Source: Aldersonia sp. NBC_00410 (lineage in GTDB: Bacteria > Actinomycetota > Actinomycetes > Mycobacteriales > Mycobacteriaceae). From it: a DNA stretch of 64,000 bases. Each line of letters starts with the position of its first letter. Within the stretch, counting starts at the first letter, position 1. The stretch covers positions 248,001 to 312,000 of the forward strand of contig NZ_JAPENM010000002.1 in the NCBI RefSeq assembly GCF_026342035.1, given 5' to 3'. Shown one piece after another: positions 9,075 through 33,978 of the stretch. Below the pieces are notes generated by a model. The model ran no database searches, was not told the DNA's origin, and was given only the letters and a program-made list of their open reading frames with translations. Position numbers and translations under genes: made by a program.

Positions 9075-9686
9075 TCACTGTCCGGTGAGCCGGTAGTCGA
9101 CGAGCCGCCACCCATCGGCGGTGTGGTCGAGTTCGGCGATCGCGACCATCGCCGGTAGCGGGGTGGCTTGGCCGTTGGCGTGCAACACGATCTGCCGAAC
9201 ATCGACCACCTGCGTGGCCTCGGTGGCGGTCTCGGTTGATCGGGGGTCGGTGTCTCGGGTGGTGGCTGCCGCGGTGATGGTGTCGTGGCTGCGTGACCAG
9301 GCCGCCCACTGCGCGGGGAGCAGCGGCGCGTCGAGGGTGACGGTCGCCGCGGCGGCGAGTTGCCCACCGAGATAGGGCAACGCACGCGCGACCGCAGCGG
9401 CCGGGCCGGGATCGGTGGCCGGTTGCCAGGAGAACATCGCCGCAAGGGCCTGCTCGGCGGTGCGGCCGGGGGCGCTGGTGACGTCGGCGAGCGGGTCGGG
9501 CAGCGGAGTGTGCGCGTCGTTTCCCTGCTCGCCGGCAACCATGCTCGCCGCCGGCGGTGCTGGCGTCGGGTTGTCGTTCCCGCACCCCGAGGTGGCCCCG
9601 AGGACGAGCACCGCCAGCGTGGCGGCTGCCAGGGTGGCGAGTCCTCGCGCGCGCGGGCGCGGGCGGGCGCGAATGGTTGTGGTCAT
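9075..9686 (-). CDS. Lipoprotein with NTF2-like extracytoplasmic region, transfer operon
   Basis: A 203-residue lipoprotein. A basic n-region (TIRARPRPRARG), a hydrophobic stretch and a lipobox ending GATSGC place it on the outer face of the membrane. The mature part ends with ...AIAELDHTADGWRLVDYRLTGQ, the alternating-strand ending typical of small NTF2-like domains such as VirB8/TcpC-type transfer proteins (inference). The ATG at 9686 overlaps the stop of the wall-hydrolase gene (ATGA), indicating translational coupling. A longer upstream start is open but would encode Arg-rich shadow sequence. Confidence 0.75.
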   Translation of the reverse strand: MTTTIRARPRPRARGLATLAAATLAVLVLGATSGCGNDNPTPAPPAASMVAGEQGNDAHTPLPDPLADVTSAPGRTAEQALAAMFSWQPATDPGPAAAVARALPYLGGQLAAAATVTLDAPLLPAQWAAWSRSHDTITAAATTRDTDPRSTETATEATQVVDVRQIVLHANGQATPLPAMVAIAELDHTADGWRLVDYRLTGQ

Positions 9687-11326
9687 TGGTTCACCGCCGC
9701 GTATTTCGGTTCGTTGGCAAGGATGGTGTCGACGTAGGGCCGGGTCTGGTTCACGTAATCGGCTGATCCGCTGGGGAATCCGCCGGCCGACAGGACCGCG
9801 CCCTCGCCGGCGTTGTAGCCGGCCAGATACAGCTCGGCGGCGCCGTTGGGGGCTTTGACCTTCCCGGAGGTGATGGCGGGGTCGATCGCGGCGGCGATTG
9901 CGCACATGTAGCGGCCCTGTGCCATCACTGCGTCGCCGATGTCGAACGGGGAGACCTGTCCGTTGCCGTCGTCGTCGCGGCCGTAGGACGGCCAGGTTTC
10001 GGGCATGAACTGTCCCGGGCCCTGTGCCCCGCTGCCGCTGACCGCTGTGGCGTTGAAGCCGGACTCCTGATGGATCTGCGCGGCGAGCAGTGAGGGTTTG
10101 ATGTGCGGGCAGATCGCGCCGGCTTTGCGCAGCCAGGGCGCGAACTGCGGTGGCACGCTGCCCGGTGCGAGGTCGTCGCCGACCGGGGCGCCGGGGTCGA
10201 GGGTGCAGTCGCTGGTGGCCTGGCCGGGGCTGTAGGTACCCGAACCGCCTTCGGGGGCGTACAGGTGTAGGTCCCCGCCGGGGAAGCCGTGCCCGTTGGT
10301 GGTCACGTGGACGTGGTCGTAGTGGTTGGCGGTGGCCCCGCCGCGGTCCTCCATCTGGTTGCGCTCTCCGTGTGCGGGGATGTATTCCTGGCGCCAGATC
10401 AGGTAGTCGATGCCGAAGGCATCCGCGTTGGACAGCAGGTAGTCCACGACCGCGTTGCCGAGCGCGATTCCTTCACCCGAGGAATAGTCGGGGATCATGA
10501 TGTCGGCGGCGCGCCCGGACGGGTGATCGGGATACGGGTCGGAGGCTCGCCAGCCGCCGATGGTCTGGATCTGCGGGTACTTTGCGTGCACCGCGCGTGC
10601 GATGCGGATCGTGTCGATCTGCCAATGGGTTTCACTGCCGACCGACGCGGGCAATGCCGCGAGCTCCGCCCCCGACGGTGACGGGGCGGGGGTGGCCGGT
10701 GCGGGTGATCCGGGCGCGGGTGGCGGGGGTCCGGTGCCGGGCGCTGGCGCGGTGTCGTAGATCGGTTTCGGGTCCACCGCGTGCCCGCCGCCCAGGCGGG
10801 TGCCGCCCTGCCAGAGTTCGAAATGCAGGTGCGCCCCGGGTGGACCGGGCGGGTCGACGGCCCCGTTGTAGCCGATCCTGGCGATCTGCTGACCGGCGCG
10901 GACCTGGTCACCGGTGTGGACAAGTAGGTCGTTGGCGAATATGTGCCGGTACACGGTGGAGGCGGGTAGTCCACTGAGGTTGTGGTCGAGCACGATCCAG
11001 TCACCGAACCCGGACGCGGGCCCGGACTCGGCGACGACGCCGTCGGTGTAGGCGTAGATCGCGGTGCCCGGGTCACCGGCGAGATCGATGCCCTGATGTG
11101 GTGCGCCGCCGCGCATCCCGAAACCGGAAGTGAACCTCACCAGGGCCGGGTCGACCGGTTTCACCGTCGATCCCGGCGGCAGCAACGGATTTCCCGTGGA
11201 ACTGGGGGCGCCGCTTCCGGGTGTGCAGCCGCTGTCGAGGGCGGCGGGGACCAGGACCAGAAGCACGATCAGCGTCAACCCGACCACCGGGGCGAGGATG
11301 GCCGCGATCAGCTTCGTGGCATTCAC
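9683..11326 (-). CDS. Three-domain cell-wall hydrolase (M23 + M15-like + lytic transglycosylase)
   Basis: A 547-residue exported protein with an N-terminal membrane anchor (residues 5-30). Domain 1 (about 55-190) is an M23/LytM endopeptidase, with zinc ligands H77 and D81 in HQGIDLAGD and HLHFE at 166-170. Domain 2 (about 230-345) has the M15-like metal pattern HPSGRAAD (H268, D275) and HYDHVHV. Domain 3 (about 395-547) is a soluble lytic transglycosylase, with catalytic E421 in QESGFN, GPGQFMP and YNAGEG. Together they could cut both the peptide and glycan parts of peptidoglycan to open a path for the transfer apparatus. All active-site residues appear present. It is encoded between VirB4-side genes and the lipoprotein. 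Confidence 0.9.
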   Translation of the reverse strand: MNATKLIAAILAPVVGLTLIVLLVLVPAALDSGCTPGSGAPSSTGNPLLPPGSTVKPVDPALVRFTSGFGMRGGAPHQGIDLAGDPGTAIYAYTDGVVAESGPASGFGDWIVLDHNLSGLPASTVYRHIFANDLLVHTGDQVRAGQQIARIGYNGAVDPPGPPGAHLHFELWQGGTRLGGGHAVDPKPIYDTAPAPGTGPPPPAPGSPAPATPAPSPSGAELAALPASVGSETHWQIDTIRIARAVHAKYPQIQTIGGWRASDPYPDHPSGRAADIMIPDYSSGEGIALGNAVVDYLLSNADAFGIDYLIWRQEYIPAHGERNQMEDRGGATANHYDHVHVTTNGHGFPGGDLHLYAPEGGSGTYSPGQATSDCTLDPGAPVGDDLAPGSVPPQFAPWLRKAGAICPHIKPSLLAAQIHQESGFNATAVSGSGAQGPGQFMPETWPSYGRDDDGNGQVSPFDIGDAVMAQGRYMCAIAAAIDPAITSGKVKAPNGAAELYLAGYNAGEGAVLSAGGFPSGSADYVNQTRPYVDTILANEPKYAAVNQ

Positions 11327-11330
11327 GACT

Positions 11331-11654
11331 TCACCACGCGCCGTGCGGGATCGGTGGCTTGTCGGTCCGGGTCTGCGGGCCGGCGGTCAGGTCGCGGATC
11401 AGCTCGGCCTGGGTGGCGAGCTGCAGGGTCCGTTCCCGTTCGGCGCGCCCGTCGTCCGCGGCGCGGGTCGGAACCGGTTCGGGGGCCGCGCTCACCCAGG
11501 ATCGCAACGTGTTCGGGCTGACTCCGATCGCTTCGGCGACAAGTTGGATTGCGCGCCACCGGCTCGACACCTGCGGGGACAGCATGCGGACCTTCTCCAC
11601 CGCGGTGACCCGGAGTTCGGGTGACAGGTCGCGGTAACGCCGTGCGGGGATCAC
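11331..11654 (-). CDS. Small HTH protein resembling a transposase OrfA N-terminus
   Basis: A 107-residue protein. Residues 10-52 (LSPELRVTAVEKVR ... SSRWRAIQLVAEAIGVSPNTLRSWV) closely resemble the helix-turn-helix of IS3-type OrfA transposase subunits. There is no OrfB, no inverted repeat and no catalytic domain. The gene is locked into the operon by a GTGA overlap with the VirB4-like gene and a 4-base gap to the hydrolase gene. It therefore looks like a recruited DNA-binding protein rather than an insertion sequence; this is inference. The C-terminal part is a short polar helix. Confidence 0.7.
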   Translation of the reverse strand: MIPARRYRDLSPELRVTAVEKVRMLSPQVSSRWRAIQLVAEAIGVSPNTLRSWVSAAPEPVPTRAADDGRAERERTLQLATQAELIRDLTAGPQTRTDKPPIPHGAW

Positions 11655-13375
11655 AGCGTCACCTGGGCACCGTTGTGGTGGTGCGCCTCATCGACTTCCG
11701 TACCGACCTTGGCGGCACCGCCGCCGGCGATGCCGAAGTCGTCGAAGCGCTTGTTGGTGGCGTGCACCTCCGCGTCGCGTTCTGCGGGGGTGAGCAGCAC
11801 TTGCACCGGAATGCCCGGGCGTCCGCCTTCGCCGTATTTGATGAGGAACTTCCCGACTCCGGCGGCGACCCGCTCGGGATCGCCGGCGCGTTTCGGGTCG
11901 TCGATCAGTGGCGGCGGGTCCGACCAGCGGGTGACCATCGCGCGTTCGGTCGCGGTGAACGGGCACAGTTTGTCGAGCCGGTCGATCTCTTTTTCCGGGA
12001 CCGGGCCGATCACCTTGACCCGGGCGCGTTCGAAGAACCCCATTGCCTTGTTCACATCGGCACGGGACTCGACCGCTTCCAGGTCGGCCAGTGAATGCAG
12101 GATCATCCACAGCGCGGTCGCGTCGCGCCGGTTCAGGCGGGTCACGGCGTTGACCCGGTCGGTCATGAACGGCCCCAGGCCCAGGACGTCCCACATTTCG
12201 TCCATGACGGCCTGGAACAGGCGTTGTGGGGCGAGGCCGGCGTCGGTGAGGGCGTGCGCGGCCTCGATCGCGGCGAACCCGTCGGCCCAGCACACCAGCA
12301 TGACCGCGGCCTTGAGTTTCTTGTCACCCTGGGGAATGTGGGAGACGTCGATGCACACCGCGATCGCGTCGATGTCGATCTCGGTGGTGGTGTGGCCGTT
12401 GAAGATTTCGCCGAACCGGCCCCGGATCAGAGCCCGTAGGCTGCGGCGCAGGTTCTTCGTCGCCGTCCGGTAGCCGATCGTGTCGTCTTCGCCCGCGTCG
12501 GCGATCAGTTCGGGGTGGCCCTCGTCGACCAGTGCGAGCATGTCGGACAGCAGTGGCGGCCGCTCGGGGGTGAATCCCTTCTCGGTGTAGAGCAGATGGA
12601 GTCCGGTCGCGATGATGGTCTCCTCGTAGTCCTCGATCCGGCGGCCGCGGATGAGTTCGAGCAGGGCGGAGACGGTTTCGACCTGGCGACCGCGCAGCTC
12701 CTGGCGCATCCGGCGCTGCAGGTCACCCGACAGCAGCGGGATGATCGAGCCGAGGACTCCGCCGGCGAGGGGGTTGACCCGTCCGTAGCCGTAGCCGAGG
12801 TCCACGACCTGCCCGCCGAGCGCTTCGACGAGGGCCCGGTAGTCGGGGCGCACGTCGGCCAGGATCAGGTTGGTCACTCCTTGCGCGACGGTGCCGAGGA
12901 CCTGGCGGCGCACGAAGGTGGATTTGCCGAACCCGTTGAGCGCGAGCACGAATCCGACGGGAGCGGTGATGAATCCGTTCGTGAGCCAGTTCAGCAGGTC
13001 CATGCACACCGTGCGCGCATTCGGTGTGCCCAGCCGCGGCCCGATCGGGGTGCCGACCAACGGTGATCCGGCACCCACCGCCCACGGCCACAAGCCGGGA
13101 GCCTGCACCGTGGTGGCGCGGTATTCGGGCACCCGGCCCACGGTGCGGGTCGCGCCGCCACCGCGGCCGCGGTAACCATGTGAGGTGAGCCGCAGCAACT
13201 TCCGCCCCGCCGGTGCCTCGGTGGTGTCGATCGCGGCGCGCTCGGCGGCAGCGGCGTTGCGGCGCCGGTTGTCGTCGATGTGCAGCTTCCACCGCGCCCA
13301 CGCCCCGCGCGGCCCGGGCTGATGTGTCCGGGCGCGGTAGGCCGCGCGTTTCGGATCGTCGAGGACCTTCACCAT
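11651..13375 (-). CDS. VirB4-like conjugation ATPase (motor half)
   Basis: A 574-residue ATPase powering the secretion channel. Walker A is ALNGFGKSTF (about 145-154) and Walker B is AVMDEMWDVLG (about 398); the C-terminal TRWSDPPPLIDD and VHATNKRFDD segments are typical of actinobacterial VirB4-like proteins. The VirB4 N-terminal half appears to be supplied by the preceding SCO6880-type gene, so VirB4 is split in two here. The start is taken at ATG 13375, just after AAGGAG. The frame continues upstream to 13507, but there it overlaps the SCO6880-type gene as Arg/Pro-rich sequence. Confidence 0.85.
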   Translation of the reverse strand: MVKVLDDPKRAAYRARTHQPGPRGAWARWKLHIDDNRRRNAAAAERAAIDTTEAPAGRKLLRLTSHGYRGRGGGATRTVGRVPEYRATTVQAPGLWPWAVGAGSPLVGTPIGPRLGTPNARTVCMDLLNWLTNGFITAPVGFVLALNGFGKSTFVRRQVLGTVAQGVTNLILADVRPDYRALVEALGGQVVDLGYGYGRVNPLAGGVLGSIIPLLSGDLQRRMRQELRGRQVETVSALLELIRGRRIEDYEETIIATGLHLLYTEKGFTPERPPLLSDMLALVDEGHPELIADAGEDDTIGYRTATKNLRRSLRALIRGRFGEIFNGHTTTEIDIDAIAVCIDVSHIPQGDKKLKAAVMLVCWADGFAAIEAAHALTDAGLAPQRLFQAVMDEMWDVLGLGPFMTDRVNAVTRLNRRDATALWMILHSLADLEAVESRADVNKAMGFFERARVKVIGPVPEKEIDRLDKLCPFTATERAMVTRWSDPPPLIDDPKRAGDPERVAAGVGKFLIKYGEGGRPGIPVQVLLTPAERDAEVHATNKRFDDFGIAGGGAAKVGTEVDEAHHHNGAQVTL

Positions 13376-13389
13376 CGGGGATCGGCTCC

Positions 13390-14889
13390 TTATCCGGCCA
13401 GCGAGTTGGGCACCGTGGCGTGGTCGGGCAGGATCACGCCCACGCCGAGGGACGCCGCGAACGCCGCGGCCTGATACCGGTAGGTCCGGCGGATCTTCAA
13501 CCGGCACTGCACCGCGAGGTCGCGGGTGATCGCCTCGACCGCGGGCAGATCCCCGTCGAGGGGTTCGGTGACGGTGATCAGCAGCCCGAACCGGACCAGG
13601 CCGTGCCCGCGGGCCTGCTCCTCGCGGGCGCGGCCCGTGTGCTCCACCTTGATCGACGCCGACGCCGCGGCCAGACCTTTCCCGGACTGCTCGGCCGCCA
13701 GTGCGTCCCTGAAGTCCATGTCGACGATCTTCACCGCGTCACCGGCGGTGTGCGGGCGGTAGAAGAGGGCCACCCGCTTGCGGGGGATCTCGGCGTTGGG
13801 GGCGAGCAGACGCCGCAGCACGCCCTCGTCGACAGCACCGATCGGGGCGGTGTCCATTTCCCACGTCACCGACTGCGCGCCGTCGTGCAGGTAGTGATCG
13901 AAGCGTTCCTCGGCCGCGACCGGACCAGCATCGGACCAGTCCAGCCCATGCGAGTTCCCGGCCAAATCCGCGTGTTCGAGGGCCAACTGCGCTGCCGGGT
14001 CGAAGGATCGGCGCACGAACGCAATCACTTCGGCGGCCGGCATCGGGCGCAACGCCACCCCGGCCGTCTGCATCGCCGCGCACAACCCGGGCAGTCGCCG
14101 CCCGATCTCCACGGCCTGCTCGGCGGGGTCCTTCCGCCGGGCATCGGTGGTCGCGGTGAACGTCACCGCCAGACGGCATTCCAGCCCCACAGTTTCACTG
14201 ACGTGCATTTCCGCGGACTGATACAGCGTTTCACTGGCCAGCTCGGGGGCGTCGGGATGAATCAACCGCCGCACCGCCCCGAGGAGCTTGTTACCCGTCT
14301 CGGGGATCGTGTCGATCACGACGGCGACCTGGGGCACGTCGCTGGTCTGGCCCATCGAGGCCAGCGCGATGCCCCATTCGGCGACCCAGCCGTTGATCAC
14401 CGACTGATCGACCGGTTCGTCACCCGAGGGCCAGGCGCGCAGCACCACGGTGTAGCAATGGGTGGCGGGCATGTGGATCATCCCGAACGTCCAGCCCGCG
14501 ATGTCGGTGCCTTCGTACAGCTTCGTCGGGGCCAGCAGACCCGGCAGACGTGTTTTGCCGCCGGGGATTTCGGAGAACACCCCGGACCGGTAGATGTGTG
14601 ACCCGGATCCGCGGCCGCGGTGCCACTGCACCCGCAGCGAGCTCACCTCGTAGCCGCTGCGGCCCTCACGTGTCCACACCAGCGGTGTCACGATCAACCC
14701 GGAGACGACCAGTACGCCCAGCCCGATCTTCGGGCCCGCGAACATCATCGTCAGCATCGACACCACCACCAGGACACCGCAGGTCAAGGTGGTGGCCCAG
14801 GTCATGCCGAACAGGCCGGCGGAGCGGGGTTTCGTCCACCCCGTGTACAGCAGGCCCTCGTTCTGTGGCGGTGTCGATGTGGCTGTCAT
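13390..14889 (-). CDS. SCO6880-type transfer protein (PrgI/VirB4 N-terminal-like)
   Basis: A 499-residue protein. Two membrane segments lie near residues 26-70 (FGMTWATTLTCGVLVVVSML and IGLGVLVVSGLIVTPLVW); a long cytoplasmic part follows, with no P-loop. This matches the SCO6880 family of actinobacterial conjugative elements, which corresponds to VirB3/PrgI plus the N-terminal domain of VirB4 and always precedes a separate VirB4-like ATPase gene, as it does here (14-base gap). Its ATG overlaps the stop of the VirB6-like gene (ATGA). It probably anchors the ATPase to the membrane channel. Confidence 0.8.
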   Translation of the reverse strand: MTATSTPPQNEGLLYTGWTKPRSAGLFGMTWATTLTCGVLVVVSMLTMMFAGPKIGLGVLVVSGLIVTPLVWTREGRSGYEVSSLRVQWHRGRGSGSHIYRSGVFSEIPGGKTRLPGLLAPTKLYEGTDIAGWTFGMIHMPATHCYTVVLRAWPSGDEPVDQSVINGWVAEWGIALASMGQTSDVPQVAVVIDTIPETGNKLLGAVRRLIHPDAPELASETLYQSAEMHVSETVGLECRLAVTFTATTDARRKDPAEQAVEIGRRLPGLCAAMQTAGVALRPMPAAEVIAFVRRSFDPAAQLALEHADLAGNSHGLDWSDAGPVAAEERFDHYLHDGAQSVTWEMDTAPIGAVDEGVLRRLLAPNAEIPRKRVALFYRPHTAGDAVKIVDMDFRDALAAEQSGKGLAAASASIKVEHTGRAREEQARGHGLVRFGLLITVTEPLDGDLPAVEAITRDLAVQCRLKIRRTYRYQAAAFAASLGVGVILPDHATVPNSLAG

Positions 14890-16394
14890 TGCCGGATCGT
14901 GTGCCTTCCCATGTCGGTGCCGCCCTGGTTGCGCTCGTCGTTTTCACGGCTGGCTCGATCCGCGTTGACCAGTCCCGAACCTGCGGTCCGTGCGGCCGCC
15001 GAGCCGCGGCCCTTGCGGGGTCCGGCTTCCGCGCCGGTCCCGGCGCCGCCGGGGCGGCGGGAGCCGCCCGCCGAGGGTGGTGGCGGGTTCTGCGGTCGCG
15101 GTGCGCTACTCGGGCGTGGCGCTCCCCCGCCGCCTCCGCCGCCTGCGCTCGCGATCGCGGCGGTCGGGCCGCCGCCGGAAAACGCGCCACTCGCCCCGCC
15201 CGCACCCGCGGCTTTGCCTGCGGCGAGCGCTTTTCCGCCGGTCGCGAGTGCGGCACCGGCCATCAGCGCGCCGCCGGTCGCGGCCGCACCGGAACCGCCG
15301 CTACCGGCGGCGGAGACGGCGGGTGAGATGAGGCGCATGAGCGCGGGAAGGATCAAAGCGGTGCAGATCAGCAGCACCATGCCCAGCAGCGCCTGCTGAA
15401 ACGCGGGGCCGGTCGGGTTGCCGTCCGCACCGCCCGGGGTGGCGTCGCCGCTGGTGGCGGACAGGAACGCCACCGCATAGGCGAGTGCCGCAACAGGTTT
15501 GAACAGCAGGAAGGCGATGATCCAGGCGATCAGCTTTTGGTAGGACTGTTTGCCGACCTCCATACCGCCGGCCGAAGCGGCGATCGGTAGTGCGGCGACC
15601 ACCACGATCAGCATCGCCTGGCGCACCACCAGCAGCACCGCCTGCATGAGTGCACCGAGGATGCCGATCACCGCGATCACGAGCATCAACCCCGGGGCGG
15701 CGGTGTTGTAGGAAGTCAGCGACAGCATCGTCGCGACGAGTTTCATCGGGTTCTGACCCGAGGTTTCCATCACGACCCAGGTCGCGAACCCGTCCCCGAC
15801 CTTGGTCAGGGTCGCGATCAGGACCGCGGCCAATGTCGAGGACAGCACCGTGCGGACCAGGCCGCGGTAGGCCTCCTCGGACTCGTCGAGCAGCGCGTGC
15901 CGGCGTGCGTTCGCCAGCCGGAAGGCCACGAAGATGATCGACACCGTCAGCAGGATCAGCTGGATCTGGAACGTGTACTCCGAAATGGCTTGTAGTGCGG
16001 TCATGTTCTGCAGGTCCGGGCTGGGCAGCATGATCCACCACGACATCGACAGCATGATCATCTGTCCCAAGCCCGACATCAGCGACTGCACGATCTTGCC
16101 GAACGAGGAGTCCCACACCTCCCCCGCCACCCCGGTCACCGCGTCCCCCACCGCACCCACCGGATTCCCCGGGTTCTCACACACCGCCGTGACACCGCCG
16201 CCGAGCACCTCACCAATGCCGGGAAAGCCAAAGAAGTTCTCGACTGCGTTGCCGACGGTCTGGCAGACTCCGCCTCCATCGTCGGCGGGCGCGGAAGGTG
16301 CTGGCGGGGGTTCCGGTTCGGCGACCGCGGTCGGGGTCGCACCACACAGGATCGCCAGTGAAAGGAGCAGGGCGAGAATTATTTTCCGGGCCAT
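14886..16394 (-). CDS. VirB6/TrbL-like polytopic channel protein
   Basis: About 502 residues. A signal peptide (MARKIILALLLSLAILCGATPTA cleavage region) is followed by a short extracytoplasmic segment, about six hydrophobic helices between residues 90 and 330, and a long Gly/Ala/Pro-rich tail. This architecture is that of TrbL/VirB6 inner-channel proteins. ATG at 16394 (MARKII) was chosen; ATG 16403 (MDGMARK) is an alternative. The gene overlaps the upstream gene's stop by about 16 bases. The open frame runs on to 17051, but that part is Arg-rich shadow of the neighbouring gene. Confidence 0.8.
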   Translation of the reverse strand: MARKIILALLLSLAILCGATPTAVAEPEPPPAPSAPADDGGGVCQTVGNAVENFFGFPGIGEVLGGGVTAVCENPGNPVGAVGDAVTGVAGEVWDSSFGKIVQSLMSGLGQMIMLSMSWWIMLPSPDLQNMTALQAISEYTFQIQLILLTVSIIFVAFRLANARRHALLDESEEAYRGLVRTVLSSTLAAVLIATLTKVGDGFATWVVMETSGQNPMKLVATMLSLTSYNTAAPGLMLVIAVIGILGALMQAVLLVVRQAMLIVVVAALPIAASAGGMEVGKQSYQKLIAWIIAFLLFKPVAALAYAVAFLSATSGDATPGGADGNPTGPAFQQALLGMVLLICTALILPALMRLISPAVSAAGSGGSGAAATGGALMAGAALATGGKALAAGKAAGAGGASGAFSGGGPTAAIASAGGGGGGGAPRPSSAPRPQNPPPPSAGGSRRPGGAGTGAEAGPRKGRGSAAARTAGSGLVNADRASRENDERNQGGTDMGRHTIRQ

Positions 16395-17257
16395 TCCGTC
16401 CATCCCGTCAGGTTCATCGTGGTGCCGCCGGAGGGAACTCCCGGGATCTGACCTGCTTTGAGTTGCCAGTCCCCGTCGCGCCAGAGCAGGTCGAGCCGGC
16501 CCGTCGTCCATTCGCCGGCTGTGTCGTTGTTGTAGGGGCGGCTGGCGATTTCGATTGCGGCGTAGTCCGGTGCCCAGTACGCGACGCGGTATGCCTCGAT
16601 GCGGTCCAGTGGAATCGGTGGCCAGTCGGTCGTCTTCGCGTACCGATCGAGGCGGGCTTGCCGTTCCGTTGGGTCGTCGAACACAACACGCTGCTCGGTG
16701 ATCGCGATCGCAGCGTCCTTGGTGGCAACCAACCTGGCGATGAGTTGCTGTGCGGCCAGGGCTGCGCCTTGGGGTGTCTGTGCGAATCCGGTGGGGATTT
16801 CGCCGTCGATGGCGGTGGGTCCGTCGCTGGTGGAGAACGGCATCGGGACGGTGTCGACCTGCTGCCACATGACCCCGGCGGGCGGGCTGGTGCAGAACGC
16901 CGTCCCGGCCGTGTCCTGCGCGGTGGCGGGGCAGTGATCCAGTCCTCCGCGCGGCGGGCGCTGCGGCTCGTCTTGTGGCAGGGCAACACCGTTGGGGTTC
17001 GGTGGTGTCTCGACCCGGCGCCCGATCGGGTCGAGATATGGCGTGCCCCAATCGGCCCGGTCGGTCTGCGTGGGCGCCGCGGCCGGTGGCGCGGCGGCGG
17101 CGGGCTCGGTGTTGTCGTGGCGGGTTATCAGGATCGCGATGGTGCCGCCCACGACGACCAGCACGACGATGGCCGCGGAGATGATCAGCGACAGCATCCG
17201 CCGCGTGGCGTGTGCGTCGGGGTCGGTCGTGGTGTCGGTTTCGGGTGGTGTGCTCAC
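16379..17257 (-). CDS. Type II membrane protein with GFxxTPQGAALAA domain (paralogue 1)
   Basis: About 292 residues, starting at GTG 17257, which overlaps the previous stop as GTGA. One membrane segment near residues 22-45 is followed by a Pro/Ala linker and a large extracytoplasmic domain containing PFSTSDGPTAIDGEIPTGFAQTPQGAALAA and ending in alternating strands with WRDGDWQLK. The next-upstream gene encodes a shorter protein with the same block (PFSNTDGP ... GFGHTPQGAALAA) and a matching WSDGDWRL ending, so the two are paralogues. They probably occupy the periplasm-like space as VirB8/TcpC-type components; this is inference from fold pattern and context. Confidence 0.75.
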   Translation of the reverse strand: MSTPPETDTTTDPDAHATRRMLSLIISAAIVVLVVVGGTIAILITRHDNTEPAAAAPPAAAPTQTDRADWGTPYLDPIGRRVETPPNPNGVALPQDEPQRPPRGGLDHCPATAQDTAGTAFCTSPPAGVMWQQVDTVPMPFSTSDGPTAIDGEIPTGFAQTPQGAALAAQQLIARLVATKDAAIAITEQRVVFDDPTERQARLDRYAKTTDWPPIPLDRIEAYRVAYWAPDYAAIEIASRPYNNDTAGEWTTGRLDLLWRDGDWQLKAGQIPGVPSGGTTMNLTGWTEWPGK

Positions 17258-17910
17258 GGTGCCTCCAGTGCGACGAATCGGTCGGACGGGATCGTGTCGA
17301 CCGATCGCACCGCCGCAGCGCTGTCCCCCGCGGGCAGCATCAGCCGCCAGTCCCCGTCCGACCACACCACAGCGACATCAGTTGCGGCCCTCGATGTGTC
17401 GGGGAAGCTTGTGAACACCGTCACCATGGCTCGCTCCGGGGTGTAGTCACCGATCCGGTAGCCGCGGATCGTCGGTGCCTCGGCGGCGACGACCGGGGCG
17501 GTGATGGAGACCTGCATCCGGTTGACCGCGAAGCTGTCTCGCTCCGCTCCGGGTGCGGCGCCGGCGGCGAGGACCGCTGCCCACTGCGCGTCCGGGGCGA
17601 CCCCGATGCGGGTGGACTGCTGGATCGCCGCCAGTGCCGCGCCTTGCGGGGTGTGCCCGAACCCGCCGACCGCGCCACCCGTCGTGCTGGCCGGGCCGTC
17701 GGTGTTCGAGAACGGCAGCGCGATGCCCTGATACGGCTCCCACCGCAACCCGGCCGGTGCCGCGGTGATGTCCGGCGCCGCCGCTTCCACCTGTGTTGCC
17801 GCATCGGTGTTTTGCGTATCACCGGCGTCGCCGCACCCGGCCGCGATCACGGCTGTGGCCGTGATCGCCAGGGCTAGCGCGAGGCGAGGGCGGGTCGATC
17901 GGGCAGCCAT
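17254..17910 (-). CDS. Lipoprotein with GFxxTPQGAALAA domain (paralogue 2)
   Basis: A 218-residue lipoprotein. The signal sequence ends with the lipobox VIAAGC (Cys about 26). The domain that follows shares PFSNTDGP, GFGHTPQGAALAAIQ and VVWSDGDWRLMLP with the protein encoded just downstream. The pair therefore presents one domain type as a membrane-anchored and a lipid-anchored version, possibly forming a hetero-oligomer in the transfer complex (inference). The start at ATG 17910 follows GGAAAGAG. The family name is not certain to me. Confidence 0.75.
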   Translation of the reverse strand: MAARSTRPRLALALAITATAVIAAGCGDAGDTQNTDAATQVEAAAPDITAAPAGLRWEPYQGIALPFSNTDGPASTTGGAVGGFGHTPQGAALAAIQQSTRIGVAPDAQWAAVLAAGAAPGAERDSFAVNRMQVSITAPVVAAEAPTIRGYRIGDYTPERAMVTVFTSFPDTSRAATDVAVVWSDGDWRLMLPAGDSAAAVRSVDTIPSDRFVALEAP

Positions 17911-17932: not shown

Positions 17933-18208
17933 TCAGAAGGTGAGCAGGGCGGCAGCGATACCGGCAGCGGAGGAGGCGATCACACTCGCGATCAGGATCA
18001 TCACGATCGAGGTGGCGGCCGCGGATTCGTGTGGCGCGTGCTGGCGCTGGTAGGCCAGCCGCCCACCGGCCCAGATCAGGCCGGCCAGCATCCCCGCACA
18101 CACCAGCCACAGCAGCCAGCCCACCACCTGCTTGAGCGGGTCGAGAACCTCCGGGGGGAGCTGCTTGACCGCGACGAGCTGGGTTGCGGTGTCGGCCAGG
18201 ACGATCAC
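17933..18208 (-). CDS. Small two-TM protein, pilin/VirB2-like candidate A
   Basis: A 91-residue protein starting at GTG 18208. It has two membrane segments (about 28-49, VVGWLLWLVCAGMLAGLIWAGG, and about 65-88) joined by a short polar loop with QRQHAPHESAA. Size and topology fit VirB2/TrbC-type subunits. A second, related small protein (DPLKQVVGWLLW here, GFLRLIRWLMWAVLLAGVAALIFAGG there) is encoded immediately upstream. The pilin role is inferred from topology and position; no pilin processing site is evident. Confidence 0.65.
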   Translation of the reverse strand: MIVLADTATQLVAVKQLPPEVLDPLKQVVGWLLWLVCAGMLAGLIWAGGRLAYQRQHAPHESAAATSIVMILIASVIASSAAGIAAALLTF

Positions 18209-18256: not shown

Positions 18257-18592
18257 TCATGGAAGGATGACCGCGTTCATGATCGTGCCGGCCGCGGTGG
18301 CGATCACGCCACCGACCAGGGCGCCGAGCACGATCTTCGGGGACTCGAGTGTGCCGCCGTTGTATTTCTCCCACCCGAACTTCCCTCCGGCGAAGATCAG
18401 TGCCGCGACACCCGCGAGCAGCACGGCCCACATGAGCCAACGGATCAGCCGGAGGAACCCGTTCGATCCCGGTGGGGCCTCGGGGCTCAGGTCCCCGATC
18501 ACGCCCTGCACCGGGGCAGGATCCTGTTGGGCGAAGTAACTGTGCATCGCGAGCACGGTGTCGGTGCTGGCGTGCAGGGTGTGCAGGATCAT
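18257..18592 (-). CDS. Small two-TM protein, pilin/VirB2-like candidate B
   Basis: A 111-residue protein from ATG 18592 (MILHTLHAS), which overlaps the preceding gene's stop as ATGA. Two membrane segments lie at about 49-70 (LIRWLMWAVLLAGVAALIFAGG) and about 88-108. The N-terminal 45 residues are extracytoplasmic or amphipathic. It resembles its downstream neighbour in topology and in the W-L-x-W-x-x-x-A-G-x-x-x-L-I-x-A-G-G pattern. The open frame extends upstream to 19036, but that portion is Arg/Pro-rich and opposes the reading of the next gene. Confidence 0.65.
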   Translation of the reverse strand: MILHTLHASTDTVLAMHSYFAQQDPAPVQGVIGDLSPEAPPGSNGFLRLIRWLMWAVLLAGVAALIFAGGKFGWEKYNGGTLESPKIVLGALVGGVIATAAGTIMNAVILP

Positions 18593-19344
18593 GACGAGCG
18601 CCTTTCTCGGGTGGAACGCGGTGGGGTGTCGGGGAAATCGAGCGCGGTGCGGAGCGCGTCGTGGATCGCGGCCCCGAGGGCGGTCACCTCGCGCGGCACG
18701 ACGGGTGTGTGCTTCGGTGCCGGTTTCACAGGCGGTGGGTCCAGCGGGGACCAGACCGGCAACGTGGTCACGTCGTGGGTGAGCGGGTACTGCTCGATCC
18801 ACGCGACGCGCCAGGCGTGCTCGACCAGCCCGGCGGCCAGGTCGCGGGTCTGGCGGACCGCGGCCGGGATCCGCCCGGGCCGGTCCGCGACGGTGACCAG
18901 TCCCAGTACCCGCGCGGGGCCGGCCAGGCCTGCGGCGTGCTGACGCAGCAGCCCGTGGGCGCGTAACAGGCCGGGTACCGTTTCGCGGGCCACCAGGATC
19001 ACGAACGGTGACTCCTCCGGGTAGTGCGCGGGCCACCGTCCCCCGGCCTCACCGGCGGGGGCGAGCACGTGCGCGAGCGTGGACACCCCGGCACCGCCGT
19101 GCGCGCCGAGTAGCCACACCGCCGGGGAACGGTGCTGCCCGTGCGGGACCGGGCGGTCCCACACCGGCAACCGGAACTGCGGCGCCCGCACCGCAAACCC
19201 CGCCCCCGCTGCGTCCGGATCGGGCAACCGGGTCATGCGGGCGTCGTCGCGCCCGGCGGGGCCGACAACGACATCGGCACTGGCGAACTCGTCGTTGCCG
19301 AGCTGGTCGCCGTCGATGGGTGCGTGGGGCATGGGATGCGGCAT
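18589..19344 (-). CDS. P-loop-like protein (DUF6668-type) lacking the Walker lysine
   Basis: A 251-residue cytoplasmic protein. The core begins VWLLGAHGGAGVSTLAHVL (77-95), a ParA/SIMIBI-like loop in which the usual Lys is Val. Later segments (FVILVARETVPGLLRAHGLL, RVLGLVTVADRPGRIPAAVR) look like strands and switches of that fold. It resembles the family annotated as DUF6668 in actinobacterial elements (moderate confidence). A good ribosome site (AAAGGAG) precedes ATG 19344. It may bind rather than hydrolyse nucleotide. A second Lys-less P-loop protein is encoded two genes upstream. Confidence 0.65.
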   Translation of the reverse strand: MPHPMPHAPIDGDQLGNDEFASADVVVGPAGRDDARMTRLPDPDAAGAGFAVRAPQFRLPVWDRPVPHGQHRSPAVWLLGAHGGAGVSTLAHVLAPAGEAGGRWPAHYPEESPFVILVARETVPGLLRAHGLLRQHAAGLAGPARVLGLVTVADRPGRIPAAVRQTRDLAAGLVEHAWRVAWIEQYPLTHDVTTLPVWSPLDPPPVKPAPKHTPVVPREVTALGAAIHDALRTALDFPDTPPRSTRERRSS

Positions 19345-19369: not shown

Positions 19370-20839
19370 TTACCGGGCGGGACCGGTCGCGGTGGCGAGG
19401 TCTTTGGCGAGCGCGGTGAACCAGTCCGCGACGAACTGCACCGGCGAGGGCCCGCCCGCGGCGGCGGGGGCCGTGGCGTAGCTGTTGTGCCGCGCGATGG
19501 TGTCGGCGTAGCGGGCCAGGGTGGCGATGTTGAGCAGGTCGGCGTTGTCGGTGACGTTGCGCTGCACCGCGGTGAACGTTTGCTGCACCAGCCGCGACGT
19601 GGTCGCCGGCGGAACGAGTTTCACCAGCGCTCCGCCGAGTTTGGTGGCCAGCAGCGCCGCGGCGGCCACCGGATTGGCCAGCCCGACCGTGGCGAACTCG
19701 GTTAGGTTGGCCGGGGTCAGGATCTCCTTGGCCACGGTGAGTGCGGCGTTGAAGCCGATGGTGCCGACCTTCATCAACGCCCGCATCGCCTCCGACGGGG
19801 TCGGCAGCGGGGTACGCGGGTCCGAGGCTTCGGCCAGTCGCTGTGACAGCGACTTCTGCGGTGACAGCGACAGGTTCGCCAGCGTGGTGCCCTGCACGTC
19901 GTTGTTGATCACCGTGACGCCGGTCTTGATCGTGGTCAGGGCCAGCGCCTGCGCGATCGAGGACACCGCCGTGATCGGGTCACCCGCCGAAAGGTCGGAC
20001 TGCCCGGCGATATTCGCGATCACGCGGACGATCGGCGCGTCGGCCGGGGCATCACACGACAGATCGCCCGGAATGCAGAAACTCGCGACCCGCCCGGTGA
20101 GGGCCCCGTAGTCGGGGGCGGTGTCGGCGACCGGGCCGATGCCGCCGCCGGTACCGGTGGGCTGGCTGGGTGCGGTGAGTTTGGAGACCTCGGTGCCGGT
20201 GGTGCCGGGTGCCGGTTGTGGGCTGGTCAACCCCGGATCACCCGGGAACAGTGCTGCGCGCGGTGCGCGGGTCGGGTCACCGAAGGTGGCGACTCCGACG
20301 AGCTTGTCGGCCGGGATCACACCCTGCCCGGCACCGACCTTACGGGCGAACGCACTCACTGCGTGCGCGCCTTGGCTGTAGCCGGCGGCGGTGAACTTCG
20401 TGTCCGGGCAGGCCGCCGCGATCTGGGCGGCCATGTCGTCGAGGCGCTGCTCGGCCTCGGTCACCGACTGCGAATACGGCACGTTGCTGCCCGCGACCGC
20501 GCCACCGAACCCGGCCGAATACGGCACGTAGGCCCGCGCGACCGCGACACCGTCCTGGGTCGCCTTGGCCAACATCGGCATGAACACCGAGGACAACATT
20601 CCCGTATCGGTCGTCGGTGATGCGTCCGGTGAGGACTGCCCGGTGCCCTGCACCCCAAGCGCGAACAGCTGCGGGCAGGTGCTCCCGATCAACTTGGCCA
20701 CCGAAGGATCAACCGACACCGCGGCGGCGGAGGTGGTCTCGGCGACCGGGGCCGCGCCGGCGACGATGCCCCCACCGGCGCCGACGATCACCACGGTGGT
20801 GCCGGCGAGGACCGCCATGCGGATGCTGCGAACGGTCAT
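19370..20839 (-). CDS. Secreted cutinase-like serine esterase of the transfer operon
   Basis: A 489-residue exported protein with an N-terminal signal sequence. The cutinase nucleophile motif GYSQGAH has Ser at about 155, with a Cys-Pro at 55-56. The Asp lies in SFCIPGDLSCD (Asp about 259). The only later His resembling the cutinase HxSY signature is in ARHNSYA (about 451), so about 190 residues, mainly helical and Ala/Leu-rich, separate Asp from His, against only a short loop in ordinary cutinases. Mycobacterial cutinase-like proteins hydrolyse lipid esters. In a transfer operon it may loosen the mycolate envelope (inference). ATGA overlaps with the upstream gene couple its expression to the operon. 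Confidence 0.8.
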   Translation of the reverse strand: MTVRSIRMAVLAGTTVVIVGAGGGIVAGAAPVAETTSAAAVSVDPSVAKLIGSTCPQLFALGVQGTGQSSPDASPTTDTGMLSSVFMPMLAKATQDGVAVARAYVPYSAGFGGAVAGSNVPYSQSVTEAEQRLDDMAAQIAAACPDTKFTAAGYSQGAHAVSAFARKVGAGQGVIPADKLVGVATFGDPTRAPRAALFPGDPGLTSPQPAPGTTGTEVSKLTAPSQPTGTGGGIGPVADTAPDYGALTGRVASFCIPGDLSCDAPADAPIVRVIANIAGQSDLSAGDPITAVSSIAQALALTTIKTGVTVINNDVQGTTLANLSLSPQKSLSQRLAEASDPRTPLPTPSEAMRALMKVGTIGFNAALTVAKEILTPANLTEFATVGLANPVAAAALLATKLGGALVKLVPPATTSRLVQQTFTAVQRNVTDNADLLNIATLARYADTIARHNSYATAPAAAGGPSPVQFVADWFTALAKDLATATGPAR

Positions 20840-21726
20840 TTCTGCATCTCCTGCATCAGATTTCGGTACGCGGTCCGGGTGAGAGGGTTCAGCTGGGCCC
20901 AGGTGATCGGGCCGCCGAGCGCCAGGTGCGGGTCATAAGGGATGTCGAAGACACCGCGGACCCACTGCCCGAGGTGGGTGCGCAGGTGCTCGGACACCCC
21001 GCGGTGGGCGTGCACACTCTGATGAGTCACGACCACGGCGCAGTCGGCGACCACGAACTCGGTGCAATGCTCGTCGAGCCACTCCAGTGCGGGCATCAGC
21101 CGATTCGCGGCATCCGCGCGGGCGGCCACGGTCACCACGACCGGCACCCGCGGATCGGCCAGTAACGGGCGAATCCCGTTGGCCTGCAACGGGGCACCAC
21201 CGTCGTACACCGCGGCCACACCGGCATCACCGAGCAGGCGATGCACCGAGGCGAACGTTTCACGGCGCGGCAGGTGGTTCTCGGTCCGCCCGAGCACCCC
21301 GATCCCGAGGCTGCTGAACCCACACGCATCCTCGACCGGCGACGGCAGCGAGGGCTCGATGGACGCCAGCCAGGCCTGCACACTGGACAGGCATCGGTGC
21401 TCGTCGGCGCCGCGTCGCGCCAGATCCCCACCGGCCGGGGTCGCGTCGACCACGACCGGCCACCCGCTGCCCTCGACCTGCGTGAGTGCGGACGTGATCC
21501 CGATCGCGGTCGTGGTCGCACCGGAGCCGCCGTTGCCGCCGACCACCAGCATCGGGCAGCGCGGCCGCAGCGCCGGCCCATCCGGTAGGCCGACGCGCAC
21601 GTACTCGCTGCGGGCACTTGACGCGGGCGGCGTGGTCGGGGATCCGGGCGGGACCGGGGCGTGCAGTCGATCCGCGTCCCGGTCGGAAAGCGCTGTCCCG
21701 GAATAGATATCCAGTGTTGTCATCAT
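20836..21726 (-). CDS. ParA/MinD-like protein with altered P-loop
   Basis: About 296 residues, from the ATG-ATG pair at 21726/21723 (ATGA overlap with the preceding stop). Residues 60-75 read LVVGGNGGSGATTTAI, a MinD/ParA-type loop with Ala where the Walker Lys should be. The following VVVDATPAGGDLARR matches the ParA Walker A' region (Asp-x-x-x-x-G-D). VVVTVAARADAANRLMPALEWL and the final TRTAYRNLMQEM are also family-like. It may be a regulatory or assembly factor of the transfer machine. The upstream part of the frame (to 21891) is shadow. Confidence 0.7.
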   Translation of the reverse strand: MMTTLDIYSGTALSDRDADRLHAPVPPGSPTTPPASSARSEYVRVGLPDGPALRPRCPMLVVGGNGGSGATTTAIGITSALTQVEGSGWPVVVDATPAGGDLARRGADEHRCLSSVQAWLASIEPSLPSPVEDACGFSSLGIGVLGRTENHLPRRETFASVHRLLGDAGVAAVYDGGAPLQANGIRPLLADPRVPVVVTVAARADAANRLMPALEWLDEHCTEFVVADCAVVVTHQSVHAHRGVSEHLRTHLGQWVRGVFDIPYDPHLALGGPITWAQLNPLTRTAYRNLMQEMQK

Positions 21727-22541
21727 TGCCCGCCTACGTTCGCGGGGGCAACAGCGATGATCGCCGGGCGGCTGTCGGGGCCAGTGGCGGTGGTGACCGT
21801 GGTTTCCCAGCGCTGCGTGGTCCGATCGGGGTGCAGCTCGTCGACGGTGACCGCGAACCGGTCCGGGGCCAGGGCGATGATGTTCACGCAATGCTCAGTT
21901 CCGGCGGGGATCGTGGCGATCGCGGCCCGGGTGTCCTCCACCGGTGCCACCACGGCGCCCGGCGCGAACAGTGCCCGCACCCCGTCGGAATCGCGATCGA
22001 CATACATCCGGTGCTGCAACGCCAACACGATCCCCGGCCCGGACGTCAGGTCACCTGCGCCCGAACCGGACACGTGCGCGCCCTCCTGCACCGTCGGGCA
22101 CCACGCCGCCGGCACCGCCGACGGGCGCACGGATTCCGTCGGCGAGGTGACGGCCGGGACCAACCCGGTGGGTGCAGCGCTCGTCTCGTCCGTGCCGCGG
22201 GTGACGGTGAGGGCGAGCACCACGCCCCCGGCCACGAACACGCCCGCGACACCGACACTCACCAGCCGCGCCCGGCGCTTGCGCGCGAGGCGTTGTTCGC
22301 GCCGTTCGACGAGTGACGCTGACAGCTCGGCCATCCGGTCCTGCGCGTCGGGCTCGTCGTTGGTGAACGCGAGGTCATCACCGATGGCGTCGTGTGCACC
22401 GACGACATCGACCTCGCTGGCGAGCCAGCCCGTCCAGTCCGAATCCGGTGGCGGGGCATCCGGATCCAGCTGGGGCGGGTGGCCCGCGAACCGGCCGCCG
22501 GACCCCTCGATACCGGCGGCTGTGTCCTCACGGCTGTTCAT
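21723..22541 (-). CDS. Type II membrane protein with NTF2-like extracytoplasmic domain
   Basis: A 272-residue protein. The first 88 residues are cytoplasmic and acidic, followed by a basic stop (RREQRLARKRRAR), one membrane helix (about 91-111, LVSVGVAGVFVAGGVVLALTV), a Thr/Pro-rich linker and an extracytoplasmic domain with two Cys (WCPTV, EHCVN). The domain's ending (DRTTQRWETTVTTATGPDSRPAIIAVAPANVG) suggests an NTF2-like sheet as in TcpC/VirB8 proteins. It is the second gene of the transfer operon and overlaps the ParA-like gene. The family was not recognised with certainty. Confidence 0.65.
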   Translation of the reverse strand: MNSREDTAAGIEGSGGRFAGHPPQLDPDAPPPDSDWTGWLASEVDVVGAHDAIGDDLAFTNDEPDAQDRMAELSASLVERREQRLARKRRARLVSVGVAGVFVAGGVVLALTVTRGTDETSAAPTGLVPAVTSPTESVRPSAVPAAWCPTVQEGAHVSGSGAGDLTSGPGIVLALQHRMYVDRDSDGVRALFAPGAVVAPVEDTRAAIATIPAGTEHCVNIIALAPDRFAVTVDELHPDRTTQRWETTVTTATGPDSRPAIIAVAPANVGGQ

Positions 22542-22560
22542 GGCGATGACCCCGCGAGTC

Positions 22561-23829
22561 TCAGTGCCCGCTGGCGGCGGACTGGACGGCGGAGACCAGG
22601 TCGTTGACCGGCGCGGTGAGCGTGCCCAGCTGGCCCGGACTAAGGGTTGGCACCGTGTTCACCGCCTGCCGGAACGACTGTGCCACCGGCGCGACGTCGG
22701 GACGCTCCACCACCTGCGTGGCAACCTGCTGCACCGCCGCCACCTGCTGCGGTGCGGCGGTCTGGACCGCGGACTGCGCCGTGCTCGCCGCGTCGGCGAG
22801 TTGTCCGGTGACCTGCGCCGCCACCGGGGTGGCGCCCACGATCGCGTCCCGCGCAGCGGAAAGCAGCTGCGGGGGAGCCGAATCCACCACCCCAGCGACA
22901 TCCACAGTCGGCAACACCGGTGCAGCAGGGGCGGGCAGCGCGGGAATGCCCGCGGTGTCCAGCAGCGGCGGCGGTGGTGCCGGAGACGCGTTCTGGCCCG
23001 CCCCGATCGCGCCCGCGACCACACCGGCGCCCACGCCGCCAGCCACCGCACCGGCCACGACAGCCGGGACACCGGTGATCGCACCACCGATGATGCAGCC
23101 GCCGATCCCGCCGAAGATTGCACCCGCAGGCGCACCGAGACCAGCCGTGAACACCGTCGCGGCCACCGCACCTCCAGCGGCACCAATCGCCGCACCGACA
23201 CCGCACCCCAGCACCGAACCCGCGATGCCCGCGACCTCGGCGCCGGCCAGCGCACCGACCGCGCCTGCACCCGTCGCGGCCGCGGCCGCGCGATCACTCT
23301 GGATCCGCGAAAAGCCAACCGAATCGAAACCTTGCTGCCCCAGATACTCGACGTAGGCGCCCCAGCCATTCACCTTGTCGGCCACGTCTTTCGGCAACCA
23401 GTCCGGGCGCTGCTGCTGGAACGTTCCTGCACGGATCGTGTCCGGCGGGGCCTGGATCGGTGCGGGCGGACCCACCGCCTCTGGTGCGGCCGCAACCACC
23501 TCGGGCTCCCGAACGCTGTCGTCGCCAAACTCCGGCGTCGGCGACATCTCCTCGTCAGTCGAAACCTGCGGGTACGACGGCTTCAGGTACTGAGGAACAG
23601 GCCGGCTCGGTGCCACCGGCGCATCCGGAATCGAGGAAACCAACGGCGTGTCCGGCACAGGAGGCGGGGCCGGCGACGCGCTCATTCCCGGCTGACCCGC
23701 GCCTCGGGGCCCCGGCGTCAACCCCGGCTGGCCAGAGGTCGCCGAACCCACGCCACTGCACGTGAACACCACCGCCAACGGGAGCGATCCCGCTACCGCG
23801 ATCCGGCGACCAATCCGATTACGTCCCAT
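22561..23829 (-). CDS. Secreted Pro/Ala/Gly-rich protein, first gene of transfer operon
   Basis: A 422-residue protein with a signal peptide (about 1-30), then a Pro/Ser-rich segment (31-135), a short folded stretch (RPDWLPKDVADKVNGWGAYVEYLGQQGFDSVGFSRIQ, about 140-178 in pieces) and a very Gly/Ala-rich region (180-275) whose regular GxxxG spacing suggests a membrane-active glycine zipper. The rest is Ala/Val/Gln-rich helix. It resembles actinomycete secreted proteins that have such an insoluble domain. It is the first gene after the transfer promoter at 23.92 kb and could form part of the outer envelope channel (inference). Confidence 0.65.
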   Translation of the reverse strand: MGRNRIGRRIAVAGSLPLAVVFTCSGVGSATSGQPGLTPGPRGAGQPGMSASPAPPPVPDTPLVSSIPDAPVAPSRPVPQYLKPSYPQVSTDEEMSPTPEFGDDSVREPEVVAAAPEAVGPPAPIQAPPDTIRAGTFQQQRPDWLPKDVADKVNGWGAYVEYLGQQGFDSVGFSRIQSDRAAAAATGAGAVGALAGAEVAGIAGSVLGCGVGAAIGAAGGAVAATVFTAGLGAPAGAIFGGIGGCIIGGAITGVPAVVAGAVAGGVGAGVVAGAIGAGQNASPAPPPPLLDTAGIPALPAPAAPVLPTVDVAGVVDSAPPQLLSAARDAIVGATPVAAQVTGQLADAASTAQSAVQTAAPQQVAAVQQVATQVVERPDVAPVAQSFRQAVNTVPTLSPGQLGTLTAPVNDLVSAVQSAASGH

Positions 23830-32895: not shown

Positions 32896-33978
32896 ATGTC
32901 GATCAATCGCCGCAAGACCACTGAAGGCGCGCGCTGGGACGTCGAATGGCGACTGCCCGACCGCACCAGACGGACGCGCACTTTCAAGACCGAACGTGCA
33001 GCGAGACTCTTCGAAGCCGAGGTCGCCGTTGCCCAAGCGCGCGGCGACCGAGTCGATCCACGCGGCGGCAAACATACACTGGCAGAAGTCTATTCGGTCT
33101 GGCTCGCATCTCGTCCAGATCTGAGTGCGAAGGTGCGCCGAGGTTACACCGACAACTGGCGGTTGCGTGTCGAGCCCAGGTTCGGTACGTGGCCCATAGC
33201 CAGGATCGACCAGGAATCAGTTCAAGGCTGGGTCAACGAAATGACCGCATCTGGCCTCAGCCCACGAACGGTCCGCTGGACTCACTCGGTGCTCAAGATG
33301 TGCCTCGACCATGCCGTCGAGAGCGGTCTGTTGATCGGCAAGAATCCCGCGACGCGAACGAAATTTCCGCCGATGCGACACCGCCAGCACACATATCTGA
33401 CCGCGTCCGAGGTCGCCGCACTCGCACAGGTCTGCGGCGAGTACGGCGATGTCGTGCTGATTCTGGCCTACACCGGCTTACGCTTCGGCGAACTCACCGG
33501 CCTCAACGTCGAAGATGTCGACCTCGCAGCACGTCGGATCCGCGTGCGCCGCTCGATCACCCAGGTGGGCGGCAAACTCACCGAGGGAAACACCAAGTCC
33601 CGTGCCGGCCAGCGCACGATCCCAATCCCCCAGCGTTTGATGCCAATACTCCTCGACAGAGTTTCAGGACGCGGTCCGGCGGAGCCGGCAATCACCTCAC
33701 CCAAAGGATCCAGGCTCGGGCTGGAGAACTGGAAACGAGCGGTTGCCTGGAAGGCCTCGATTGCGGCTCTCGCGCGACCGAGCCTGCGCGTCCACGACCT
33801 GCGCCACACCTATGCGTCGCTTGCACGTAAGGCTGGCGCCGACCTGCGGCTGCTTCAAAAGGTCATGGGCCACGCCTCGATCACTGTCACCGCGCACACC
33901 TATGCCGATCTGTACGACGAGGAGCTCGACAGCATCGCCACTGCACTCGACGGCTTGGCCGGCATCGATTCCGTGTAG
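32896..33978 (+). CDS. int: Tyrosine recombinase / integrase
   Basis: A 360-residue phage-type integrase. An N-terminal arm-binding domain (1-60) and SAM-like core-binding domain (62-150) precede the catalytic domain. The active-site set is complete: R196 (TGLRFGEL), K234 (NTKSRAGQR), H300 and R303 (HDLRHTY), H326 (GHASI) and nucleophile Y336 (HTYADLY). It would recombine attP with attB in the adjacent tRNA-Val gene, whose 3' end starts 308 bases downstream. The start follows AAAGGATCGG. Confidence 0.95.
   Translation: MSINRRKTTEGARWDVEWRLPDRTRRTRTFKTERAARLFEAEVAVAQARGDRVDPRGGKHTLAEVYSVWLASRPDLSAKVRRGYTDNWRLRVEPRFGTWPIARIDQESVQGWVNEMTASGLSPRTVRWTHSVLKMCLDHAVESGLLIGKNPATRTKFPPMRHRQHTYLTASEVAALAQVCGEYGDVVLILAYTGLRFGELTGLNVEDVDLAARRIRVRRSITQVGGKLTEGNTKSRAGQRTIPIPQRLMPILLDRVSGRGPAEPAITSPKGSRLGLENWKRAVAWKASIAALARPSLRVHDLRHTYASLARKAGADLRLLQKVMGHASITVTAHTYADLYDEELDSIATALDGLAGIDSV

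Follow-up and report, generated by a model that had tools for sequence, protein, structure and literature searches.

Comparative analysis of a cutinase-family serine esterase gene in an SCO6880-type conjugation operon of Aldersonia and its possible part in crossing the mycolate outer layer

Lysin B (LysB), used by phages in lysis, is an esterase that acts on mycolyl-arabinogalactan. In D29 LysB, a linker domain lies between Asp166 and His240 (PMC7022511). Cutinases have also been connected with plasmid transfer. A 2019 paper on the plasmid pRErm46 (PMC6794481) proposes that a cutinase opens the outer layer for conjugation, and cites 2012 work (Francis et al.) in which a cutinase promotes conjugation of pFiD188. 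The central idea of the first-pass annotation of the DNA studied here, that an esterase serves as a mycomembrane-specific part of the transfer apparatus, is already in print in that paper; our comparisons support and limit it. In a literature search conducted mostly at listing level, this paper was the only one found to link a cutinase with conjugation, and no comparative test of cutinase, SCO6880 lineage and mycolate host was noticed. A word search of the main text of a 2025 review on T4SS (PMC12857230) returns "mycolic" once and "Rhodococcus" never. Little has been written on how DNA passes the mycolate outer layer, and a conserved transfer-operon esterase with a likely triad makes the question testable by a single mutation. 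The same comparisons set a limit to the idea, in that several transfer systems of Pks13 hosts manage without a nearby cutinase.

Here, we analyse a window of 64,000 nucleotides, the whole stretch of Aldersonia sp. NBC_00410 DNA under study, whose relevant features are collected in Table 1. The first-pass annotation had placed an open reading frame at 19370-20839, and the cutinase gene occupies exactly that span; its strand, left unstated there, is minus. A chance or mis-called reading frame is ruled out by a GC3 of 0.88 and by matches in 314 plasmid records. The Pfam family Cutinase (PF01083, CE5) matches residues 80-267 (E 1.8e-10; 41.5 bits, curated cut-off 25.9), a match that stops short of H451. 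The motifs described earlier are in place: GYSQG begins at residue 153 (S155), GDLSC begins at residue 258 (D259), and H451 lies in HNSY. The protein has just two His residues, H451 and H159, the latter beside the Ser motif. Seven of the eight most hydrophobic 19-residue windows begin at residues 8-16, making up an N-terminal hydrophobic stretch of signal type, and the eighth begins at residue 391. The esterase is probably secreted. Elsewhere in the same genome, six other places match cutinases, which we read as five genes.

Table 1. Coordinates of the cutinase gene, its operon and a nearby integrase gene in the window
Feature	Coordinates	Strand	Description
TraG/TraD-type coupling protein	6190..8262	minus	
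Peptidoglycan hydrolase	9683..11326	minus	M23 (76-177) and SLT (407-514) domains
VirB4-like conjugation ATPase	11651..13507	minus	Match under the models' cut-offs
SCO6880-family protein	13390..14889	minus	E 1e-160
721-aa ORF	14886..17051	minus	Conserved beside SCO6880 in 62/80 related loci
218-aa lipoprotein-like protein	17254..17910	minus	Weak match; 73/80 related loci
91-aa small protein	17933..18208	minus	Kept beside the cutinase in 65/80 related loci
Downstream gene, DUF6668/CpaE-like	18589..19344	minus	Homologue in 76/80 related loci
Cutinase-family serine esterase gene	19370..20839	minus	489 aa; signal-type N-terminus, alpha/beta core, helical Asp-His insert
Upstream gene, MinD/CpaE-like	20836..21722	minus	Weak NCBIfam match; P-loop-like motif by eye
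Operon gene with one membrane segment (by eye)	21723..22541	minus	Homologue in 77/80 related loci
First gene of the operon as read	22561..23829	minus	Ala/Gly-rich, signal-like start (by eye)
Tyrosine integrase	32896..33978	plus	Adjoins a tRNA cluster; ~12 kb from the cutinase

The cutinase gene lies within a conjugation operon, as had been proposed. An ATGA sequence joins its start codon to the stop codon of the preceding gene, and the SCO6880, VirB4-like, TraG/D-type and M23+SLT genes are co-directional with it. The presence of SCO6880, VirB4-like and TraG/D-type genes in one operon makes this a conjugation module of the actinobacterial SCO6880 type. The claim that the gene sits next to a three-domain peptidoglycan hydrolase does not hold: some 8 kb separate the cutinase gene from the M23+SLT gene downstream of it, whose product has two domains by Pfam. 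The genes flanking the cutinase gene on its two sides both encode weakly CpaE/MinD-like proteins. By position, the first gene of the operon is like that of the "insoluble domain protein" adjoining the cutinase of plasmid NZ_CP147922. An 830-aa ORF with no Pfam match (21661-24153, plus strand) runs antisense to conserved minus-strand genes, and past the operon head there is a cytochrome P450 gene (27075-28541, plus strand). A P450 gene with a GAF-domain gene is likewise found in two Rhodococcus plasmids (L008:10610-12049; L022:10718-12109). The window cutinase is a chromosomal member of the conjugation-linked cutinases, on an element that may be integrative; an att search starting from the tRNA-Val end finds no repeat within ~74 kb to its left.

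Alignments suggest that S155, D259 and H451 are likely the catalytic triad. The close set has 81 rows: the query plus 80 relatives, the best of 252 and almost all from Nocardia. Its 80 genome-contig loci were fetched by the patterns GDL..CD and GYSQGA.., so that the conservation of Ser and Asp in 81/81 rows is partly a matter of choice; H451 lies outside these patterns and is His in 81/81 rows as well. Also kept in all 81 rows of this best-80 alignment are C55, C144, C255 and C262, which may form two disulfides with the pairing of cutinases. The loci of the wider set, 33 besides the query, were picked first on SCO6880 and afterwards on GYSQG, a motif filter that removed 7 of 40 family loci: L122, which has AYSQG; L151 and L165, in which the Ser is altered; and L140, L142, L143 and L123, in which the motif is absent in the frame used and which we read as stretch-end fragments or frame breaks. 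In this set, the Asp is found in 34/34 rows and the His in 32/34, and the remaining two rows end before their His, which exists. Across 47 rows, with identities as low as 31%, the triad residues do not vary; the Ser motif was the basis of choice for most of these rows and the His for none. In profile alignment, three paralogues on the chromosome of this genome (L002, L003 and L006) have their Ser, Asp and His paired with S155, D259 and H451, and their Tyr and Trp with Y454 and W473. With the pFiD188 cutinase, Ser and Asp pair, and His pairs in global mode only; with the Culp6-like paralogue L004 and with L005, only Ser and Asp are paired; with D29 LysB, Ser is paired, Asp in global mode only, and His is unpaired.

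Two AlphaFold models of the protein (mean pLDDT 70.0 and 79.8) bear on the same question. Rv3802c (5w95) aligns with them over VIA-align residues 54..485 (Z 26.4, rmsd 3.0, 236 aligned; Z 27.6, rmsd 2.7, 233 aligned), and D29 LysB (3hc7) aligns over residues 56 to 476 (Z 18.3 and Z 19.5, the latter with rmsd 4.2 and 220/252 aligned). The first-pass annotation had called for a structural check on the convergence of S155, D259 and H451. Both models align with Rv3802c over a range spanning all three residues; a range denotes the first and last aligned residue and gives no triad distances. From the models, we infer that the segment bearing H451 and the last helix dock on the core as in cutinases. 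Fold searches give 12 viral matches at E up to 0.001, seven of which bear the name Lysin B. That the gene descends from a phage finds no support. The LysB-matched family phrog_102 (D29 LysB, 1.2e-76) matches the window cutinase and also the chromosomal cutinases of the genome, phage records gave no tblastn match at E 1e-5, and viral contigs gave no sequence match.

It is also conceivable that the protein is a Culp-type envelope lipid hydrolase, a phospholipase or thioesterase that either remodels membrane lipids around the conjugation channel or trims a transfer protein carrying a lipid modification, with no cutting of mycolate esters. Among solved structures, Rv3802c comes closest in both sequence and fold, the NCBIfam Culp6 equivalog NF050160 matches the protein, albeit well below its cut-off (65.1 bits versus a curated 570), and PMC2947987 cites a mycobacterial cutinase that acts as a phospholipase A. 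We nevertheless regard this possibility as fairly unlikely, given that the Culp6-like paralogue in the same genome has 31 residues between Asp and His, as against 192 in the window cutinase, and that the distribution presented below fits mycolate hosts, although these hosts share other lipids too.

The 192 residues from D259 to H451 bear out the length of the "190-residue insertion" noted in the first-pass annotation, and in the second model this insert has helices between 269 and 451 (pLDDT block means 57-86). The insertion is no oddity, in that long stretches are found in relatives, in chromosomal paralogues and in the pFiD188 cutinase. The Asp-His stretch is 189-192 residues in 81/81 rows of the close set and 189-197 in 32 rows of the wider set; it is 191 by alignment in L109 and ~250 in L158 and L163. 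In L002, L003 and L006, which lie on other contigs outside the transfer operon and are 33-34% (L002, L003) and 23-24% (L006) identical to the window cutinase, it is 143 residues. The insert is thereby ruled out as a conjugation-specific trait. Long-insert cutinases are also chromosomal, outside such operons; the insert is a wider cutinase feature in these bacteria and is therefore uninformative by itself on conjugation.

The 314 plasmid records were found by tblastn, 141 of them matching over at least 80% of the query; 293 come from Rhodococcus, Prescottella, Gordonia and Nocardia, and one from Cryobacterium. In five inspected plasmids (from Rhodococcus, Prescottella, Gordonia, Nocardia and Corynebacterium), the operon is the same, and the gene lies at its head or close to it. 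Among the genome-contig loci, the best 80 of 252 relatives, 79 have at least one further gene of the window operon, on the opposite side of the cutinase in part of them; the exception is L102, where the contig ends 284 bases past the match. SCO6880 or VirB4 is present in 40 of the 80, many flanks being cut short. In the pVAPN stretch examined, the cutinase stands apart from any SCO6880 operon, with a MobF relaxase at a distance of ~7-8 kb, and the stretch from R. fascians PBTS 2, a record cut at its start, has no SCO6880.

Some related loci have lost the gene or its serine. Compared with its near twin L109, L110 has a deletion of ~0.96 kb comprising the core of the cutinase gene (about 16900-17200 in L110, against 17194-18151 in L109), with remnants on both sides. 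L151 (16636-18171) has GYGQG in place of GYSQG, a change of Ser to Gly, and L165 (2465-4324) has neither Ser nor His at the aligned places. These three may be decaying elements. The L151 stretch contains a second family piece at its edge. Such losses, and the abundance of cutinases in these genomes (five further genes in that of Aldersonia), are what speaks for the view that the gene is an accessory hydrolase hitch-hiking on the operon, serving nutrition, surface modification or exclusion and standing outside DNA transfer. We consider this highly improbable: the same operon recurs in the inspected plasmids of five genera, an operon neighbour is present in nearly all of the genome-contig loci, the cutinase start overlaps the upstream gene, and a genetic effect is reported for pFiD188 in PMC6794481.

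To what extent does the cutinase follow mycolate-producing hosts? The NCBIfam SCO6880 family is found in 109/301 genomes of the GTDB family Mycobacteriaceae and in 107/296 genomes of a class sample, which includes some genomes of the same family. We surveyed 60 family loci and as many from other families, including flanks of ~9 kb if the contig was long enough; loci were hand-picked for spread, a non-random choice, and some family genomes gave more than one. A cutinase-like frame above the family threshold is near SCO6880 in 40/60 family loci (41/60 after extension) and in 0/60 outside the family. Fisher's test gives p 2e-17 for 41/60 versus 0/60, to be read with the loci being non-independent and hand-picked. 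The extension stretches were taken for family negatives only, the outside loci being kept at their first stretches; 7/19 family negatives are cut by contig ends, and 11/60 outside stretches are under 16 kb. A survey of cutinases beside transfer genes in mycolata had been suggested in the first-pass annotation. Its view of the esterase as a mycomembrane-specific transfer part is partly supported: S155, D259 and H451 are conserved in a cutinase fold, the gene sits in the transfer operon at most related loci, and its occurrence is bound to the family that makes mycolates. The view is narrowed by the restriction to one machine lineage.

This restriction emerges from a tree of SCO6880 (quick, no bootstrap), in which all positive loci fall into one clade of 54 rows with support 100. 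The clade has 42 rows with a cutinase (window counted), 7 cut by contig ends and 5 without. The host contrast is confounded by ancestry, and the cutinase goes with one machine lineage. Seven family loci outside the clade (L149, L150, L152, L153, L155, L160 and L162) have no cutinase, and five of these, L152, L153, L155, L160 and L162, are from hosts bearing Pks13 over the cut-off (G320, G396, G316, G523 and G314). A nearby cutinase is therefore dispensable for some transfer systems in likely mycolate producers. G320, G396, G316 and G523 have other cutinase genes elsewhere in the genome, which might serve transfer instead. In L152, L153, L155 and L160, the machines cluster with machines from other families in the class.

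Ancestry might account for the whole pattern: the conjugation-linked cutinase would have been inherited with one machine lineage and would matter little today. In this case, one would point to the single SCO6880 clade that holds all positive loci, to the other machine lineages that lack a cutinase in Pks13-bearing hosts, and to the broken copies. We find this explanation improbable. The triad is invariant down to 31% identity in rows none of which was chosen by its His, and the pFiD188 cutinase goes with a different machine. In a 26-protein tree with long branches, the pFiD188 cutinase is joined by the Culp6-like paralogue and by that of pVAPN (90/89), apart from the proteins linked to SCO6880. 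A clade of the pFiD188 and SCO6880-linked proteins is rejected weakly (AU p 0.036); L002, L003 and L006 fall among the SCO6880-linked proteins in this tree, and the AU test is therefore not specific to pFiD188.

Hosts without mycolates offer a further comparison. Pks13 is found at E 1e-280 in 271 of 283 well-assembled family genomes and is absent in 12, which we interpret as absence of mycolates; NF038338, also tried as a mycolate marker, is FadD28 and uninformative. SCO6880 occurs in only one of the 12, G305, whose two loci (L149 and L150) have no cutinase in the stretches examined and whose genome has no Pfam cutinase match at E 0.001. This pattern agrees with the mycolate reading, as that of one genome with systems outside the 54-row clade. 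The other 11 family genomes without Pks13 (G311, G246, G329, G384, G416, G425, G434, G452, G484, G491 and G515) are also without SCO6880, versus 171/271 of those with Pks13.

On balance, we think it probable that the window gene encodes a LysB-like, secreted and catalytically intact envelope esterase of the transfer apparatus, which helps conjugation to cross the mycolate layer. In such a scheme, the cutinase would be exported and fold as an alpha/beta hydrolase with a helical Asp-His insert. Near the conjugation channel, it would then hydrolyse lipid esters in the outer layer, which is rich in mycolates, and the operon's own M23/SLT protein would open the peptidoglycan. The pair would act like LysB and LysA of phages, but locally and without killing. 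Our data show the sequence, the conserved triad residues, the predicted fold, the operon and the distribution; from them we infer export, activity, substrate, site and effect on transfer alike. A broader proposition is that the conjugation machines of mycolic-acid bacteria carry a dedicated esterase that opens the outer layer, a non-lethal counterpart of LysB paired with a peptidoglycan hydrolase. Systems of the SCO6880 and TcpC types would have acquired this esterase in at least two separate events, and hosts that make no mycolates would lack it. This we put forward tentatively, its chances seeming to us slightly short of even. If true, it would explain DNA transfer across the mycomembrane, and could help to set plasmid host range.

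Finally, we compare the locus with the known systems. Like the window, pFiD188 of Rhodococcus fascians has a cutinase in or beside its conjugation region together with a murein hydrolase. A single place on pFiD188 matches its cutinase, beside genes of the TcpC, VirB4-like AAA_10, M23+SLT+NlpC and FtsK types. Its cutinase likewise has the Ser, the Asp and then a His in HNSY, with an Asp-His stretch of 229 residues. Unlike the window, pFiD188 has transfer genes of the TcpC and FtsK types, whereas the window copy is chromosomal. A second recruitment, by the TcpC-type system of pFiD188, is likely. In pRErm46 of Rhodococcus equi, a cutinase is similarly found with a murein hydrolase in the conjugation region, according to PMC6794481. 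Rv3802c (Culp6) is the best match of the window protein in both fold and sequence; the Culp6-like paralogue differs from the window cutinase in its short Asp-His stretch. D29 LysB shares with the window protein a cutinase-like fold, the GYSQG motif and a helical or linker domain between Asp and His. It differs in having 74 rather than 192 residues from Asp to His, and sequence similarity between the two is weak. The genetic settings differ as well: Lysin B belongs to the lysis genes of phages, whereas the window cutinase is found in a conjugation operon instead.
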